DNA from: Elainella sp. Prado103
Lineage (GTDB): Bacteria; Cyanobacteriota; Cyanobacteriia; Elainellales; Elainellaceae
Direction of reading: 5' to 3'
NCBI GenBank assembly: GCA_025454395.1
Contig: JALOOM010000020.1
Span: forward strand, 1-64,000
DNA length: 64,000 bases
The position numbers and the translations under genes were made by a program. The notes beneath the pieces were generated by a model. It saw only the letters and a list, made by a program, of their open reading frames with translations, had not been told where the DNA came from and ran no database searches. Shown here in pieces: positions 6,541-12,921 of the stretch; positions within the stretch are counted from its first letter, which is position 1; the number at the start of each line of letters is the position of its first letter.

Positions 6541-6979
6541 AAGAGATTGAGCTAGGCGATTCACCAAAAATTCACTTTCTCGTGGCATTATGAGGGTGAA
6601 TCGAAGCTATACAGAATTTAATAATCGCTGCTAAGAGACTGACAACAGAGCATCAAACTATCAGAAGCTTACCAGATCATTGCTGCCAGTAGATTGCTAG
6701 CAAAAAGTGCGCTAGAACAATAGAGAGCCAGATGCGCCGTGACCGCTTTGTCCTTGGGTGGATCGGATTGGGTTTCGGGTTGGGTTGTTCGAGCATTCAT
6801 GCAGTTCGTTGCGAAAAGTTAAACAAAGATGTTTTTCATTTTGCTGCCATTTGCTTATAGATCGGATATGATCACGAGCAAAGCAGTTTTCGGTAGCAGA
6901 GTGTAGAGGAATTCAATTGGGTTCCTTCAGTTCTTCTCCGGCCTGCATGCCCCTTGTGTCGAATGGTTTGGAGAGGATC
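6541..6979. other. Spacer upstream of the RNA-binding protein gene
   Basis: About 440 bp with no supported gene. It should contain the promoter and a long 5' leader of the RRM gene, whose relatives in cyanobacteria are often cold-regulated. I see no clear promoter boxes or repeats. Confidence 0.4.
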
Positions 6980-7270
6980 GTGACTATTTACGTTGGCAAC
7001 CTGTCTTTTCAGGCAACTGAGGATGATTTGCGGGAAGTCTTTGCCGAATACGGGAAGGTAAGCCGAATTAGTTTACCAACCGATCGCGAAACTGGCAGGA
7101 AGCGAGGATTCGCATTTGTAGAAATGGAAGATGAAGCCCAGGAGGATCAGGCAATTTCCGAACTTGATGGCGCTGAGTGGCTGGGTCGAGAGATTCGAGT
7201 AAATAAAGCGAAACCGCGTGAAGGTGGCGGCGGTGGCGGCGGCGGTGGTCGCCGAAATGGTGGTTTCTAA
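6980..7270 (+). CDS. RRM RNA-binding protein (Rbp family), glycine-rich tail
   Basis: Small cytoplasmic RNA-binding protein of the cyanobacterial Rbp family, 96 residues. One RRM domain starts at once: RNP2 is IYVGNLSF near the N-terminus and RNP1 is KRGFAFVEM near residue 42. A short tail with a run of nine glycines follows. The open frame reaches back to a TTG at 6917, but family members begin directly at the RRM, so GTG at 6980 is preferred; GGAGAGG lies just upstream, though very close. Family members take part in cold adaptation and mRNA binding or localisation. The gene is alone on its strand. Confidence 0.9.
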   Translation: MTIYVGNLSFQATEDDLREVFAEYGKVSRISLPTDRETGRKRGFAFVEMEDEAQEDQAISELDGAEWLGREIRVNKAKPREGGGGGGGGGRRNGGF

Positions 7271-7570
7271 CTCTGGTGCTCTTTAGCAATAGTCAAGCGC
7301 TCAAGCAGATTTAATGGATGAGCCCCGATCAGAAAGCGTAAATTGGTAGCCGAGTGAAGAAAACCGGCCATAGTTCAGCCAATTGATGGTTTTGCGATTG
7401 ATGGGCCTGTTCTGAGGTAGTAGCGTAGATGCTAGCATCTTTGACTCAAAGATAGCATAGTGGTGCTTGCGGTATCTTGGCCGCCACACTGCTATGCGGT
7501 TTGGATTGAAGAATCGTTAGAATCGAGACGGCGCTCAGTTGCCGTTTTATCTGCTCGTTTGACTGTATCT
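7271..7570. other. Spacer before the GTPase gene, with two overlapping palindromes
   Basis: Exactly 300 bp. The only clear structure is a 14 bp perfect palindrome AGATGCTAGCATCT at 7427-7440, overlapping a 17 bp one, ATCTTTGACTCAAAGAT, at 7437-7453. They lie about 120-145 bp before the chosen GTPase start and could be an operator. Confidence 0.5.
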
Positions 7571-9073
7571 ATGCTCCGAATGCGTTGGATTTTGATTGCC
7601 GTTGCGGTGTTGCTGACCTTAGGGTTAGCTTCTTCCCTATTCGACTCATTGCAGCGACTTTATTTTGGGCTGGCTGTTCTCTCGCCCCTGTTGGCTAGCC
7701 TGTTGTTGGTTGTTTTGGTAGGCGCTTTGATTGCGGGGATCGCCGCGCTGGTTTACTACCTACTGATTTTTGGTCGCCCCGTCAAGCCTAAGTCAACCCA
7801 GATTCGCCTCCCCACTGAAAAATCTGCTGTGGCAGAGCAATCGTTACGAGCAGTACAACAGCAAGTGAGCCACATCCAGGATGAGGTAGCCCGCAAGGCT
7901 TTGTTGGAGCGATCCGAGGCAATTGCCCAGTCTTTAGAGCAGCGGGATTTCACAGTGGTGTTTTTCGGGACTGGCTCAGCCGGAAAAACCTCTCTCATTA
8001 ACGCCATTCTGCAGGAAATCGGGGGGAGTGATGCAACGCAGCCTCAAGGGGGGAGAGTGGGTGCTGCAATGGGGATTACCATTCATGAGCAAACTTATCG
8101 GTTGAGCTTAGAAGGGTTCGATCGAGATATTGTTCTGGTAGATACGCCGGGCATCTTGGAGGCAGGCGCAGCAGGAGCGCAACGAGAGCAACAAGCCAAA
8201 CAGTGGGCAACTGATGCTGATCTGCTTATTTTTGTGTTGGATAATGACCTGCGGCAGTCGGAGTATCAAGCGCTTCAGATCCTGACTGAAATGGGTAAGC
8301 GGCTACTGGTGGTCTTCAACAAAATTGATTGCTATTTAGAGTCGGAAAGGCAACAGATTTTAGCTGCGCTTGATCGCCGCTTACAGGGAATGATTTTGGC
8401 AGATGACTTAATCGCAGTTGCTGCTAATCCCCATTTAACGATGCCCTATCCTGAAATCTTGCCACTGTTAGAACGCATGGCAACCGTCTTGCGCGCCGAG
8501 GGGGAAAACCTCATTGCCGATAATATTTTGCTGCAATCTCAGAGATTAGGGCAAGAAGCTCGTCAGATGATCGACCAAGAACGCCAGCATCAGGCTGAAA
8601 AAATCGTCGATCGGTTTCAGTGGATTGGAGCAGGAGTCGTGGCTGCCACGCCTTTACCCCTTGTTGATCTGGTCGCCACCGCCGCGATCAATGCTCAGAT
8701 GGTGGTTGAACTGGGACGAGTCTATGGTTGTGAGATGAACCTCGATCGCGGCAAGGAACTGGCCATTTCTTTAGCAAAAACCCTGGTCAGTCTGGGGGTT
8801 GTGCGAGGAGCCATCGAAATTTTCTCGATCGCCTTGCAGACAAATGTTGGCACTTTTCTGGTTGGGCGAGCCATCCAGGGTGTCACAGCCGCTTACCTGA
8901 CTCGAATTGCTGGCAAAAGCTTCATCGAATATTTCCGACAAAACCAGACTTGGGGAGATGGTGGCATGACGGAAGTTGTACAGGAGCAATTTCGGCTCAA
9001 TCGACGAGATGACTTTGTCAAAGCCTTTTTGCAAGAAGCGCTGGATCGGGTTGTGAAACCACTCGATCGCTAA
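7571..9073 (+). CDS. Membrane-associated Era-like GTPase with C-terminal DUF697-type domain
   Basis: Predicted membrane GTPase of 500 residues. Two N-terminal membrane helices (about residues 5-25 and 33-65) are followed by a G domain: Walker A GTGSAGKT at 133-140, DTPG at 191-194 and NKID at 250-253. The C-terminal half (about 340-490) has hydrophobic helices typical of the DUF697 (YcjF-like) family common in cyanobacteria. The frame is open back to 7460, but the ATG at 7571, just before the first helix, is the more likely start. The cellular role of this family is not established; membrane traffic or stress roles are guesses. It is followed by an 11 bp tandem repeat. Confidence 0.88.
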   Translation: MLRMRWILIAVAVLLTLGLASSLFDSLQRLYFGLAVLSPLLASLLLVVLVGALIAGIAALVYYLLIFGRPVKPKSTQIRLPTEKSAVAEQSLRAVQQQVSHIQDEVARKALLERSEAIAQSLEQRDFTVVFFGTGSAGKTSLINAILQEIGGSDATQPQGGRVGAAMGITIHEQTYRLSLEGFDRDIVLVDTPGILEAGAAGAQREQQAKQWATDADLLIFVLDNDLRQSEYQALQILTEMGKRLLVVFNKIDCYLESERQQILAALDRRLQGMILADDLIAVAANPHLTMPYPEILPLLERMATVLRAEGENLIADNILLQSQRLGQEARQMIDQERQHQAEKIVDRFQWIGAGVVAATPLPLVDLVATAAINAQMVVELGRVYGCEMNLDRGKELAISLAKTLVSLGVVRGAIEIFSIALQTNVGTFLVGRAIQGVTAAYLTRIAGKSFIEYFRQNQTWGDGGMTEVVQEQFRLNRRDDFVKAFLQEALDRVVKPLDR

Positions 9074-9103
9074 ACGAGGCTATCTTCCGAATTTCCAAGT
9101 GAT

Positions 9104-9147
9104 CTTCGAGTCACTTTCGAGTCACTTTCGAGCCACCTTCGAGCTAT
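9104..9147. repeat. 11 bp tandem repeat, four copies
   Basis: The unit tttcgagtcac occurs in four adjacent, slightly varied copies, starting 31 bp after the GTPase stop. Confidence 0.75.
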
Positions 9148-9250
9148 CCTCAAGTCATCTTTCAGTCTAGTGGTGTAATCCTCGAATTTGCGTGTCTTGT
9201 TCTGCGTATCTTGTTCTGCGTTCTGTATTATTTCTCAGGTATTCTTTAAA

Positions 9251-9290
9251 GAAAAAATTGCCTGACCTCATAAGCCCCCAAGGTCAGGCA
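9251..9290 (-). terminator. Intrinsic terminator on the minus strand
   Basis: Stem of 10 perfect pairs, tgcctgacct / aggtcaggca, then ATTTTTTC reading leftward. It would end the candidate RNA described above; read rightward there is no T-run. Confidence 0.6.
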
Positions 9291-9500
9291 GGTCACCTGT
9301 AAGGACGCTTTTTGAACCGGAAGAACCTCAAACAACTCAATTGCCCCCTAGTTGTTCAGCCCTTCCGAATCGCGTTCTCCAGAAGTGAGTTCATTGTGTC
9401 TTTTGGAACCCCTTAGTCACGTCGAAAAATCCACGGAACTTTCTAATCGCAGCCAATCCCACTCCAGAAAAAATCAGTGAGCCTACGTAGCGCTTTTTGA
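9251..9500 (-). ncRNA. Candidate small RNA with its own intrinsic terminator
   Basis: A perfect 10 bp stem (9259-9268 with 9281-9290, 12 nt loop) is followed, on the minus strand only, by a T-rich run (complement of 9251-9258). That is a good intrinsic terminator, yet no minus-strand gene lies upstream of it. The preceding minus-strand sequence can fold: aacaact pairs with agttgtt, and an outer cggaag pairs with cttccg (both within about 9305-9370). A structured transcript of roughly 200-250 nt is inferred; the 5' end shown is a guess. It is not recognised as tmRNA, RNase P RNA or SRP RNA; a 6S-like RNA is possible but unproven. Confidence 0.35.
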
Positions 9501-9558
9501 GGCTTCTGGGGTAGAGCTTTGTAGAGTAGGATCAATCAGGCACCTGAGGTGAGCCATC

Positions 9559-10323
9559 ATGCTGATCCCGATTACCCGAAAAAAATTTGAAGAGCTAATT
9601 CCTGTCACCGCCACCGCCAACCAGTATCGCTATTGCTGGGGCAATTTTTCCGATATTCTCCGGCGCGTGCTGATTTCAGTGGCAGGCGTTGTGGTAGTCG
9701 CCCTCTTGTCCTACTTTGCAGGGAGCCGGTTTGAGATTGTACTGGCATTTTTGGGTAGCGCCACTGGACTGTACTGGCTCTGGTATCCGGCTTATCAAGC
9801 AACTCGGCGGAACCTGGAATCACGAAGATATAAGTACAGCGGCTTTTTATTCGGTGAAGTGCTTGATATTTTTGTGACTGAAACGTTAGTGGGTAAGGAA
9901 GAAACGGTCAACAAGCAGGGTGAGCTGGTGATTATCGAGAATCGAGAACGGCGCATCAATCTGGAGGTGGGAGATGACACCGGCTTTGTGGCCACCGTTC
10001 AAGCTCCCTTGCTGAAAGTCCATCGATCGATCCGCCGGGGCGATCGGGCTGAACTATTGGTGATGTCGAATCGTCCCGACCTGAGCCGAATCATGCAGGT
10101 TTCTGATGTTTATGTTTCGGATGCAGATTTATGGGTGTCGGATTATCCCTATCTGCGCAAAGACATTTTTCTGGAAGTGGGTCGTCGCATTGAGCAACAA
10201 GAAGCAGGCTGGGACGATCGAGAACCGCCAGCAGCACGGCAGCAGAACTCCGATCGCTACCCACCCTCTCAAGAACTGCGTCGATTGCCAGGACATCGTC
10301 CTAACCGCGATCGAGCCGATTAA
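9559..10323 (+). CDS. Cyanobacterial conserved membrane protein of unknown function
   Basis: 254 residues with two close membrane helices at about 34-80 and a soluble remainder. The C-terminal 35 residues are charged and probably disordered (many Arg, Gln, Asp). Relatives are sometimes annotated as phosphate ABC transporter permease, but no permease signature is visible, so I do not use that name. The ATG at 9559 has a GAGGTGAG ribosome site upstream. The 3' end overlaps the convergent ATL gene by 4 bp, so the two transcripts are mutually antisense at their ends. Confidence 0.75.
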   Translation: MLIPITRKKFEELIPVTATANQYRYCWGNFSDILRRVLISVAGVVVVALLSYFAGSRFEIVLAFLGSATGLYWLWYPAYQATRRNLESRRYKYSGFLFGEVLDIFVTETLVGKEETVNKQGELVIIENRERRINLEVGDDTGFVATVQAPLLKVHRSIRRGDRAELLVMSNRPDLSRIMQVSDVYVSDADLWVSDYPYLRKDIFLEVGRRIEQQEAGWDDREPPAARQQNSDRYPPSQELRRLPGHRPNRDRAD

Positions 10324-10685
10324 GCGTTGGAATTGGGTTCAAAGGATAAAGCTGTAAGCAATTCTGGTTTCCAGCGACTAGGTTTCCAGCGATAGGTTTG
10401 CAGGCTAATTTTTCCTGCTGACGAAAATTCAATTCCTTCTTGCTCCAACAAGTCCCGCTGCAAATGATCATCACCATGCCGCAATGGCGATTGAGAGATT
10501 TCTCCTTTGGCATTAATGACACGATGCCAAGGCACCTCCAGATCATGGGTAACGCGATAGAGGGCATAGCCCACCAGACGCGCCTGTCCCGGCATATTCG
10601 CCAATTCAGCAACCTGACCATAGGTGGCAACTCGCCCCGCTGGGATTTGGCGCACGACTGCATAGATCACTTTATAGGCAGACAT
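10320..10685 (-). CDS. Alkyltransferase-like DNA repair protein (ATL), MGMT family
   Basis: Small DNA-binding protein of 121 residues that resembles the C-terminal domain of O6-methylguanine methyltransferase. The active-site motif PCHR is PWHR (W53, H54), so the acceptor cysteine is missing. ATL proteins with Trp here bind O6-alkylguanine, flip it out and flag it for nucleotide excision repair without removing the alkyl group. The helix-turn-helix with TYGQVAELAN and the VGYALYR segment carrying the Arg finger are intact. The frame is open to 10730, but the ATG at 10685 fits the family. It converges on and overlaps the membrane-protein gene by 4 bp. Confidence 0.9.
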   Translation of the reverse strand: MSAYKVIYAVVRQIPAGRVATYGQVAELANMPGQARLVGYALYRVTHDLEVPWHRVINAKGEISQSPLRHGDDHLQRDLLEQEGIEFSSAGKISLQTYRWKPSRWKPELLTALSFEPNSNA

Positions 10686-10734
10686 CGATCGAACTCCTGA
10701 TCCTCGCTCGCTTGTCCAACCATCGTCCAATCAA

Positions 10735-10833
10735 ATATAGTCCAGACCTAGATATAGTCCAGACCTAGATATAGTCCAGACCTAGATATAGTCCAGACCT
10801 AGATATAGTCCAGACCTAGATATAGTCCAGACC
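10735..10833. repeat. 17 bp tandem repeat, 5.8 copies
   Basis: Five perfect copies of atatagtccagacctag and a sixth of 14 bases, with no spacer between them. It lies between the divergent starts of the ATL gene and the next membrane-protein gene, where promoters are expected. Confidence 0.95.
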
Positions 10834-10919
10834 AGCGTAGAAAGTTGAATCCGATCGTTGAGGGCAATTTGATGCCGAGCTAGATTGCTGTTACATGGAT
10901 TGCTCTCTAGCGAGCCAAT

Positions 10920-11879
10920 GTGATGGGAGAGATGCAGAGTCAGAGTCAGCCTTGGTATGCTTTTGATCGAAGCGTATTGAAGCGTTCTGCCCAGCCATTA
11001 GCAAATGCCGTGAAGCCTGATATCCTAACCCAAATTTCTGCCGAATTAAGTACTTTGACAGGTCGAGTACTCATCAAGCCGCCCATCAAACTGCCCATCA
11101 AACCGCCCATTAGACTACCCATCAAACTGCCAACCGCGACCCAAAAACGCCTTCAGCGTTGGTCACATCGTCTGGTAAGGCACAGAAACTGGTTATTGAG
11201 CGGGGTTGGGGTACTGCTGCTCTGGGTTTGGCTGTGGCAATGGCTCTTGGCGATTACGATCGGGCTAACGGTCACCGTTGCAGTGTATTTAGCGCAGCAG
11301 GGCCAGTTGCGATTACCAGGGCGCAGAAGCTGGCAAAAGTTGTGGAAACCAACGAATCGATCGCTCACCTTGTCCTGTCTGGCAGGCGGGTTGGCGCTGG
11401 CTTACACCTATCTGGCTACCGCAGTATGGCTAGAATCAGAGCAGCACTGGCTGGTGTCTACCATTCTGCTGCAAGGGCTGGGGATGCTGGCGATCGGAAG
11501 TTGGCTCTTGTGGCGCTGTCAATCTGCGGCTCAGGAGGCTGGATCGTCCAAAGCTGTGGGTGAGGCTGGTCGATCTTGGCTGCTCGCACTCTCTGATGCC
11601 GATCCGTTACAGCGGTTGATTGCAGTGCGCCAACTGACTCGTCAGGCTCTGTCGGTTCAAACTGCTTCTATGACCGCTGCTGAACTCTCCGACTGTTTTC
11701 GTCTCATGCTCGATCGAGAAACGGAATCTGTAGTCTGCAATGCGTTGATTGAAAGCCTGCAAATGCTCGGTTCGACGCGGCAAATCACAGCAACTCAGCT
11801 CTCTGGGGCTGAATTTTCCCAGCCATTGGCGCGATCGATGCAACAAGATGAAACACTTATTCATGCCGATCAGGGATAG
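10920..11879 (+). CDS. Hypothetical membrane protein with Pro/Ile/Lys repeat
   Basis: 319 residues, not assigned to a named family. A hydrophilic N-terminus carries a short I-K-[PL]-P repeat (residues about 51-71), encoded by five 12 bp repeats at 11072-11131. Membrane helices follow at about 94-125, 149-170 and 178-197. The soluble C-terminus (about 220-319) contains PLQRLIAVRQLTR, a segment like an armadillo/HEAT helix pair, which is only suggestive. The ATG at 10920 is chosen; an in-frame ATG follows at the second codon. A neighbour link to thyX downstream is not evident. Confidence 0.65.
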   Translation: MMGEMQSQSQPWYAFDRSVLKRSAQPLANAVKPDILTQISAELSTLTGRVLIKPPIKLPIKPPIRLPIKLPTATQKRLQRWSHRLVRHRNWLLSGVGVLLLWVWLWQWLLAITIGLTVTVAVYLAQQGQLRLPGRRSWQKLWKPTNRSLTLSCLAGGLALAYTYLATAVWLESEQHWLVSTILLQGLGMLAIGSWLLWRCQSAAQEAGSSKAVGEAGRSWLLALSDADPLQRLIAVRQLTRQALSVQTASMTAAELSDCFRLMLDRETESVVCNALIESLQMLGSTRQITATQLSGAEFSQPLARSMQQDETLIHADQG

Positions 11880-11893
11880 ATCGGTGGGAAGCG

Positions 11894-11915
11894 GTAAAAG
11901 TTGCGTAAAAGTTGC
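11894..11915. repeat. 11 bp direct repeat, two copies and a part
   Basis: gtaaaagttgc is repeated in tandem and followed by gtaaaa, just after the membrane-protein stop and about 85 bp before thyX. Confidence 0.6.
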
Positions 11916-12000
11916 GTAAAAACTCTTGGTGCAGCAAAAAAAATCTGAGGTACGATAACGAACTCGAACGCTACTTTTCGCATCGTAACCGCCCAGACCC

Positions 12001-12768
12001 ATGCAGTTAATTTCCCAAGAGTCCAAATCCGCCGCCCAACCGATCGATCCGTTCTTTCGGGTGGAAGTGCTATCGCAAACCGCCAATCCCCAGCAATTGA
12101 TCTATGCTGCCATGCACCAAGACTATGCGGAAGCTTTCATTTGGGATGAGCGCGATCGATTTCCAGATGAAGCCAAGGCTGGCGATTTGGTAATTAAGCA
12201 CCTGCTAGCAGGCAACCGGGGGCACTATGGGCCGTTGGAGCATCCGCAGATCGTCTTGAATTGTGGGTTCTTTCCCCATTCCACCATGCAGCAAATGCGG
12301 ACTCACAGGGTTGGTGTATCTTTCGATGTGCAATCATTTCGTTATACCGGCCAGCGCATCATCGATGTGGCAGAAGGCAAACGTAATATCGAAGAAGTCT
12401 TTTATCTTCGTCCGATCGGTTTCTATAGCGATCGGCAAGGCAAACGCTATGAATATACTGAAGCATTACGCCAGCAAGATCTAGAATGGTGTTTGAAAGG
12501 TTGTCATCGCTATACAGAACGGATTCACCAAGGTTTTTCTGAAGAACATGCCCGTGGATTAATTGCCTTTGATGTGCGGCAGCATTGGGTGATGTCTGCC
12601 AACGTTCGCTCTTTTATGCATTTACTCGATCTGCGCTGGAAACTTGATGCTCAGCAAGAAGCCCAGCAGTTGTGTGAGTTGATGTGGGTACATTTCGCCA
12701 ACTGGGCACCGCAGATTGCCGCCTGGTATGAAGCCAACCGCGCCAAAAAAGCTCGCCTCTCGCCCTAA
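12001..12768 (+). CDS. thyX: FAD-dependent thymidylate synthase ThyX
   Basis: Makes dTMP from dUMP with methylene-tetrahydrofolate and NADPH, using FAD; it replaces ThyA. 255 residues. The region around residue 100 reads MRTHRVGVSFDVQSFRYTG, which is the ThyX motif in a variant form: THR replaces RHR, and the spacing to the SxRY serine is one residue longer than the classic RHR-X7-S. The glutamate-rich N-terminal helix, the GPLEH segment and the C-terminal NVRSFMHLLDLRW with DAQQEAQ fit the family. ATG 12001 is the first codon of the frame. Monocistronic on present evidence. Confidence 0.93.
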   Translation: MQLISQESKSAAQPIDPFFRVEVLSQTANPQQLIYAAMHQDYAEAFIWDERDRFPDEAKAGDLVIKHLLAGNRGHYGPLEHPQIVLNCGFFPHSTMQQMRTHRVGVSFDVQSFRYTGQRIIDVAEGKRNIEEVFYLRPIGFYSDRQGKRYEYTEALRQQDLEWCLKGCHRYTERIHQGFSEEHARGLIAFDVRQHWVMSANVRSFMHLLDLRWKLDAQQEAQQLCELMWVHFANWAPQIAAWYEANRAKKARLSP

Positions 12769-12780
12769 AGTGCGGGAAAA

Positions 12781-12855
12781 GATCCTGATGGAAAAGATCT
12801 GGATGAAAAAGATCTGGATGAAAAAGATCTGGATGAAAAAGATCCTGATGGAAAA
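12781..12855. repeat. 15 bp tandem repeat, five copies
   Basis: Unit gatctggatgaaaaa (three perfect copies) flanked by one variant gatcctgatggaaaa on each side. It begins 12 bp after the thyX stop. Because the unit is a multiple of three without stops in several frames, it creates spurious open frames on both strands. Confidence 0.95.
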
Positions 12856-12921
12856 GATCCCGATCGCCCCACCCATCTCTTACGCTGATAGTTGCTGATA
12901 GTTAAAGATCGGGAAGAGGCA

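Follow-up and report, generated by a model that had tools for sequence, protein, structure and literature searches.

Several described RNAs are close enough to the one reported here to serve as comparisons. PsrR1 (SyR1), a high-light sRNA with targets such as psaL, is a cyanobacterial intergenic RNA of similar length that ends at an intrinsic terminator, and both fall in the range of 130-140 nt. 6S RNA (RF00013) is likewise a structured intergenic RNA. CsrB/RsmY-type RNAs sequester CsrA, and the RNAs that act as decoys for CsrA/RsmA carry GGA motifs in their hairpin loops. Yfr2-type models are held in Rfam. Going by the main text of PMC2662882, RNAs of the Yfr2 family are conserved across many cyanobacteria and contain unpaired stretches of constant sequence, and our RNA resembles them in both respects. 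Yfr1 has a conserved unpaired CACUCCUCACACC (PMC4734099, main text). Published sizes are about 110 nt for NsrR1, 68 nt for IsaR1 and about 200 nt for Sye_sRNA1. We argue that the RNA described below most likely represents a new family of trans-acting sRNA, judged by a sequence comparison that covered Rfam 15, PsrR1, Yfr1 and Yfr2b.

The locus lies between genes in a 64 kb stretch of DNA from Elainella sp. Prado103. This whole stretch is the window. The preliminary description had singled out a lone minus-strand terminator that points left, with no gene on its strand to the right until an alkyltransferase-like (ATL) gene. Both observations hold. The terminator runs from 9290 to 9259 as TGCCTGACCTT-GGGGGCTTAT-GAGGTCAGGCA followed by ATTTTTTCTT, and its stem has 12 paired positions if G-T pairs are counted. 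If a terminator is strictly required to have 9 or more perfect pairs, 5 or more of these G-C, then a loop of 3-12 and T5, 9259-9290 is the only one on either strand of the window, where it is found in two overlapping registers. Thirty dinucleotide shuffles of the window gave a mean of 0.13 such registers and a maximum of 3. A looser definition finds 9 terminator-like sites in 8001-12000, this one included, where 3.7 are expected. No ORF of at least 60 aa overlaps 9252-9558 on either strand. To the right, the first gene on the minus strand is the ATL ORF (10320-10730, PF01035), and a plus-strand gene at 9559-10323 stands between it and the terminator region. We argue that this solitary terminator very probably closes a gene for a small RNA, about 135 bases long, that is conserved in Leptolyngbya-type cyanobacteria. 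The features of the locus, with the evidence for each, are as follows.

9252-9387, minus strand: proposed sRNA transcript of about 135 nt (model match at 9252-9392, fold z of -4.0, DNA matches in 40/59 relatives)
9252-9257, minus strand: T-run of the terminator, TTTTTT, read from the sequence
9259-9290, minus strand: hairpin of the intrinsic terminator, the model's helix 7 (alignment A3: 96.3% of cells paired, 7/12 pairs changed on both sides)
9271-9279, minus strand: terminator loop GGGGGCTTA with the invariant GGGGGCT (73/73 RNAs and both omitted G045 copies)
9294-9308, minus strand: 3' arm of the closing helix, GCGTCCTTACAGGTG (CCTTACAG in 56/73 RNAs)
9331-9356, minus strand: internal hairpin AACAACT-AGGGGGCAATTG-AGTTGTT, helix 5 (both sides changed in 8/8 pairs; pairing in 84.7% of cells)
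9340-9349, minus strand: loop of the internal hairpin, AGGGGGCAAT (GGGGGCA in 73/73 RNAs)
9372-9385, minus strand: 5' arm of the closing helix, CTTCTGGAGAACGC (helix 1, 97.8% of cells paired)
9393-9398, minus strand: -10-like box CACAAT (xAnAAT conserved; placed from CACAATGAACTC at 9387-9398)
9419-9442, minus strand: proximal upstream element AAAGTTCCGTGG...TCGACGT (upstream alignment, 71 loci)
9468-9486, minus strand: distal upstream element, consensus GTaaatnTACggAtt, in the window GTAGGCTCACTGATTTTTT (upstream alignment, 71 loci)
9559-10323, plus strand: divergent gene for a 254-aa protein, outside the RNA itself (in 36/73 loci a homologue stands next to the RNA in divergent orientation)

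The fold of this segment is unusually stable. Positions 9252-9392 fold at -54.8 kcal/mol (z = -4.0) and none of 200 shuffles did as well. The whole stretch 9250-9558 is unexceptional, with z = -1.4 and 11/100 shuffles as good. The long folding arm of the preliminary description thus exists, but it is shorter than had been claimed. Its further proposal, an unlisted structured RNA of 200-250 nt on the minus strand, is supported in kind by conservation, covariation, a promoter-like box and the RNA's own terminator, but not in length, since the conserved RNA is about 135 nt. Six members folded singly gave z from -4.9 to -1.4, and not all are exceptional, as L101 (z = -1.4, 16/200 shuffles as good) and L089 (z = -2.4, 5/200) show. 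Alignment A3 holds 70 sequences, and 93.5% of its 2646 cells are paired. Double changes occur in 25/38 pairs, where shuffles average 17.0 and none of 500 reached as many. When the partners are slid by 1-3 columns only 34-48% of cells are paired. It must be noted that A3 was fitted to the model and so leans towards it. An unfitted alignment of 29 sequences (A1) has double changes in 14/38 of the predicted pairs. When 71 sequences were aligned without fitting and folded with L092 removed, the RNAalifold consensus consisted of the closing helix and the terminator only. The closing helix is almost constant, in its sequence and in its pairing alike. The comparison points to a conserved RNA structure that is kept by compensatory changes.

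The loops are the other constant part. The internal stem varies on both sides in 8/8 pairs and the terminator stem in 7/12, yet GGGGGCA and GGGGGCT are each present in 73/73 RNAs. These 73 are the 70 loci of A3 together with L132-L134. The pattern scan supplied 28 of them; because its pattern contains GGGGGCAAY along with most of GCGTCCTTACAG, both are bound to be present in those loci. For the internal loop a fair count is obtained from the loci that this pattern did not pick, and both loop motifs are found in 45/45 of these. For GGGGGCA the count becomes 45/47 if two diverged copies from the genome G045 are added. The CCTTACAG of the closing helix is found in 30/45 loci chosen without a pattern that holds it. 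Of the 52 loci from the pattern scan, 21 were left out because their contig has the same length as one already in the set. We also omitted L041, which is cut by a contig end, and the duplicates L055, L087, L088 and one of L037/L099. The two G045 copies are outside the 73 too, as they have GGGGGCT without GGGGGCA. They are relatives of the RNA arranged in tandem in a single genome, at 1532-1667 and at 2148-2227 of L135 (G045:C19). Both keep GTCCTTGCAGGT from the closing helix and a terminator loop with GGGGGCTTT, and both are without the internal GGGGGCA loop.

The distribution of the RNA was examined by DNA search and with covariance models. A DNA search with 9240-9560 against 60 genomes, the window's own included, gave matches in 41/60, which is 40/59 relatives. 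In these 40 every match stops at query position 308-318, the end of the terminator, and starts at 115-271, so that the furthest any relative reaches to the right is about 9446. Thirty loci were fetched. All but one of them (29/30) align in one orientation across the RNA and the upstream block, and the thirtieth, L028, carries the RNA too. When a collection covering 84,980 species was scanned with a pattern, 52 contigs came up, and every title is cyanobacterial. The covariance model matches the window's copy at 9252-9392 with 148.7 bits (R1) and 139.2 bits (R2), the sequence being included in both models. Within the order 33/36 genomes, own included, have a single match apiece, as do 27/27 of the good-quality ones. 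Nearly all loci of these 33 genomes were members of the model, so the count speaks for presence and copy number and not for independent discovery. The three genomes with no model match are 68-82% complete, and the DNA search finds the same 33 genomes. A carrier that can be grown is Leptolyngbya sp. PCC 6406, where the RNA lies at L048:3638-3780.

In a sample of the class 16/39 genomes from 11 families match the model at E<1e-5. Twelve of these 16 were in the model already and four (G044, G045, G433 and G434) are new. G058 and G063 from the same sample were dropped as weak matches (E 0.4-0.7). A search of 386 genomes of the phylum matched 9, under strict filters and with 8 candidates scored per genome, a setting that may miss weak matches. 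Eight of these are true. The ninth, L092, was dropped as a false match at 29.1 bits, with 32% GC and no GGGGGC loops. A model search of 14 genomes found nothing (0/14; no positive control, 3 genomes shared with the class sample). Neither did one of 29 further genomes, which had the window's own genome as a positive control and shared 1 genome with the 14 (0/29). As far as these models can see, the RNA is confined to part of the class. Comparison supports a single-copy RNA gene that is inherited vertically. A single copy in 27/27 good genomes of the order, together with two invariant loops, implies strong selection, and the RNA probably regulates something central.

The RNA was not matched by the model search in the four Synechocystis-type genomes tested. 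This apparent absence would explain why studies of that model missed it. We did not find this RNA described in the main texts of the open-licence papers searched, which included PMC4734099, PMC6091082, PMC6202907, PMC6166021, PMC6778093, PMC2662882 and PMC5295598. It may be an unnamed predicted entry among the 627 segments of PMC4734099 or in the Acaryochloris list of PMC5295598. With the alignment and the covariance model at hand, a probe for Northern blots, mutants of the loops and a bait for pull-downs can be designed directly.

The region before the RNA looks like a promoter. The form xAnAAT (x not A) occurs within 14 nt around the model start in 67/73 loci, against 18/584 control windows shifted upstream. 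The -35 region is poor, and because of this the promoter is putative. Upstream of the RNA many loci conserve GTaaatnTACggA and then, about 30 nt on, AAnnTTnnGTA. The inverted pair ACGGA/ACTGA ... TCCGT/TCAGT, spaced 10-60 nt apart, is found in 26/71 upstream regions, against 1.2 in mononucleotide shuffles. We infer an activator-dependent promoter. The string GTAAATnTACGGA of the distal element has 49 exact matches in 26/36 genomes of the order, where the reversed pattern used as a control has 13; there is no exact match in the genome of Elainella sp. Prado103. Thirty of these sites were fetched. Seven precede this RNA and all 7 have the second half-element, which is found at 0/23 of the others. 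The neighbours of those 23 sites form no common group beyond two small clusters, and no clear regulon sharing the distal element emerges from the 30. Comparison across loci supports the gene, its structure, its terminator and the promoter-like box. The 5' end of the sRNA is predicted at 9386-9388 and the 3' end within the T-run.

Other origins for such a segment have to be weighed. One can imagine a gene for a very small protein, and in the window and some relatives an ATG that overlaps the -10 box does open a frame, of 12 aa in the window. This ATG is not kept in the alignment. The RNAs are 133-147 nt long and their lengths do not vary in threes. The three sense frames hold stops in 68/73, 66/73 and 73/73 RNAs, and the longest internal sense ORF has a median of 12 aa (minimum 0, maximum 29). 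The RNA appears to have no coding capacity, and we regard the small protein as highly improbable. A leader or attenuator of the downstream gene would also be a structured RNA with an intrinsic terminator at its end. However, the gene downstream in the window (7460-9073, plus strand) is convergent, dapB is convergent in 21/21 loci where it is seen, and a same-strand downstream gene family was seen in 3/73 loci (L039, L063 and L072), so there is very little chance that the RNA is a leader. Another scenario takes the segment for the tail of a longer RNA of the minus strand, which either comes from the ATL gene or runs antisense to 9559-10323. Any transcript of this strand that arrives from the right would be served by the terminator, and the preliminary description had allowed that read-through from the ATL gene might explain it. 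This is disfavoured by the conserved -10-like box directly before the RNA, present at its start in 67/73 loci. Conservation also stops at the upstream elements, and within flanks of 1.5 kb an ATL ORF was seen beside the RNA in only 3/73 loci, the window included. We consider a longer transcript very unlikely.

Known RNAs fare no better as an explanation. The preliminary description had suggested a 6S-like RNA and a comparison with the 6S and other Rfam models. That comparison turned up no relevant family: at the gathering score none of Rfam 15 matches the RNA in the window. A 6S-like RNA would be an open-promoter mimic that binds RNA polymerase, and the long paired arm, the intergenic position and the single copy are all compatible with that. 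However, RF00013 has no match in 9074-9700 up to E 10, and the genome has its single 6S match on another contig (C26:110943-111130, 89.9 bits). The most constant parts of our RNA besides the closing helix are its hairpin loops, which argues against the 6S class as well. Its likelihood is close to nil. There is no tRNA or tmRNA in 8500-10500.

A divergent homologue of PsrR1 deserves more space. The length (131 nt) and closing terminator of PsrR1 are similar, and its gene receives a full-length match to our model. But this match is weak, 6.7 bits, and the opposite strand at the same place scores 5.8 bits. A core, CTTCCATTGACATT, was derived from 5 fetched PsrR1 loci and is not a published definition. 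It has 0 mismatches in 5/5 of those loci and 3-8 in our 73 RNAs, against 2-7 in shuffles. In turn no GGGGGC lies within 70 nt of the core in 5/5 PsrR1 loci. As a query the SyR1 oligonucleotide, taken from the main text of PMC2662882, is exact in 2/386 genomes; a third match with 3 mismatches was taken as chance. A DNA search with the PsrR1 gene finds 10/291 genomes at E<=0.01, and six of these were taken as PsrR1 from match length and core. None of the six matched the sRNA model. In the order a DNA search for PsrR1 gave only short matches, in 13/36 genomes with a best E of 0.0017. Ten of these matches were taken up as loci, and nine have 4-6 mismatches to the core. The other, L244, has 1, but it falls within an open frame of 604 aa and its fold is not unusually stable. 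Since PsrR1 itself was not found in the order by DNA search, mutual replacement is possible in principle, and we found no genome in these searches with both RNAs. With the core absent from the 73 RNAs and no co-occurrence in the six PsrR1 genomes we reject the identity, and a divergent homologue seems most improbable. A comparison with published PsrR1 oligonucleotides led to the same rejection. The Yfr families can be treated briefly. The Yfr2b oligonucleotide scores at best 10 against the 73 RNAs and 11 against shuffles, with no Rfam match in the window. For Yfr1, 11 bases of CACUCCUCACACC were used; the best local score is 6/11 and the shuffled maximum is 7, so it was rejected.

We argue that the segment is a stand-alone minus-strand sRNA gene with a putative promoter of its own, a closing helix and two GGGGGC loops, acting in trans, and we give this reading a probability of about 0.58. 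RNA polymerase would start near 9387, just past the CACAAT box, and the two-part upstream element would probably bind an activator. The transcript of about 135 nt would end at the hairpin and its U-run (9259-9252). It would consist of the closing helix (CUUCUGGAGAACGC with GCGUCCUUACAGGUG), an arm that bears a hairpin (loop AGGGGGCAAU) and the terminator hairpin (loop GGGGGCUUA). Such an RNA would work in trans and not on its neighbours. Pairing in trans fits because there is a single copy, a promoter-like box and no fixed neighbour. The two loops are likely contact sites, because they present six identical bases on stems that drift. Their partners would most likely be GCCCCC-type sites, carried by mRNAs or by another sRNA. 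Bacterial sRNAs most commonly use loops of this kind to base-pair with targets in trans, and for these loops such pairing is somewhat favoured. A seed for base pairing is unusual in the loop of a terminator, which counts against pairing.

A search for targets of the internal loop in the window's own genome was of little help. GGGGGCAAYT has 66 matches over both strands, where the reversed pattern has 16. Two fetched stretches overlap, which gives 67 counted site instances, the RNA's own excluded. Of these 36 are antisense within an ORF, 20 are sense within an ORF, 6 are intergenic and 5 lie near a possible start. None of these 5/67 is convincing as a target complementary to the loop.

The same loops could serve a protein. 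In this scenario the RNA is a decoy whose two identical GGGGGC loops sequester an RNA-binding protein, and the presence of GGGGGC on both hairpins in 73/73 RNAs while the stems vary fits a protein site as well as it fits a pairing seed. Repeated identical loops on several hairpins recall CsrB, RsmY and RsmZ, and a similar way of working can be imagined by analogy. However, our RNA has only two such sites, no Rfam match, and loops that read GGGGGC without GGA, on which ground the CsrA/RsmA decoy class was rejected. The tandem G045 relatives keep the terminator loop without the internal one, which also counts against a decoy. We know of no protein for a GGGGGC loop of this kind. We regard the decoy as possible though rather unlikely. 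A related and more speculative proposal is a new class of two-headed RNA, in which the GGGGGC loops of both hairpins form a bivalent docking site, either for an RNA-binding protein that is titrated or for a second copy of the RNA, held by a four-stranded G structure. We hold this to be doubtful. If it were true, the terminator itself would function as one of the heads, and the RNA would be a regulator with global effects in one large branch of the filamentous cyanobacteria.

The neighbours of the RNA change from locus to locus, and the counts are lower bounds, as flanks of 1.5 kb were used and some contigs end. Downstream the commonest neighbour is a convergent dapB, in 21/73 loci. In the window a DUF697 GTPase occupies the place that dapB has in other loci. 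A CbiC gene is found in 21/73 loci at a median of 1 kb upstream of the RNA. The 254-aa protein of the divergent gene has only a sub-threshold match to PF03899 (E 0.0042) and no accepted Pfam or NCBIfam match. Loci from other families (L027, L091, L093 and L098 for example) share the partial order dapB - RNA - divergent gene, and this shared order fits vertical descent. About 2 kb from the RNA, at 6917-7270, the window encodes an RRM RNA-binding protein with a glycine-rich tail. It was not found in those loci of relatives that were searched, many with 1.5 kb per side, and its closeness to the RNA is probably chance. Short tandem arrays are common in the window (41 rows). One of them, at 10735-10833 just upstream of the ATL gene, is a perfect array of 5.8 copies of the 17-mer ATATAGTCCAGACCTAG. 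A 15-bp tandem repeat at 12777-12864 comes right after the ORF 12001-12768, which looks ThyX-like by eye, and small overlapping ORFs read this repeat as repeated FFIQI-type or MKKIW-type peptides.
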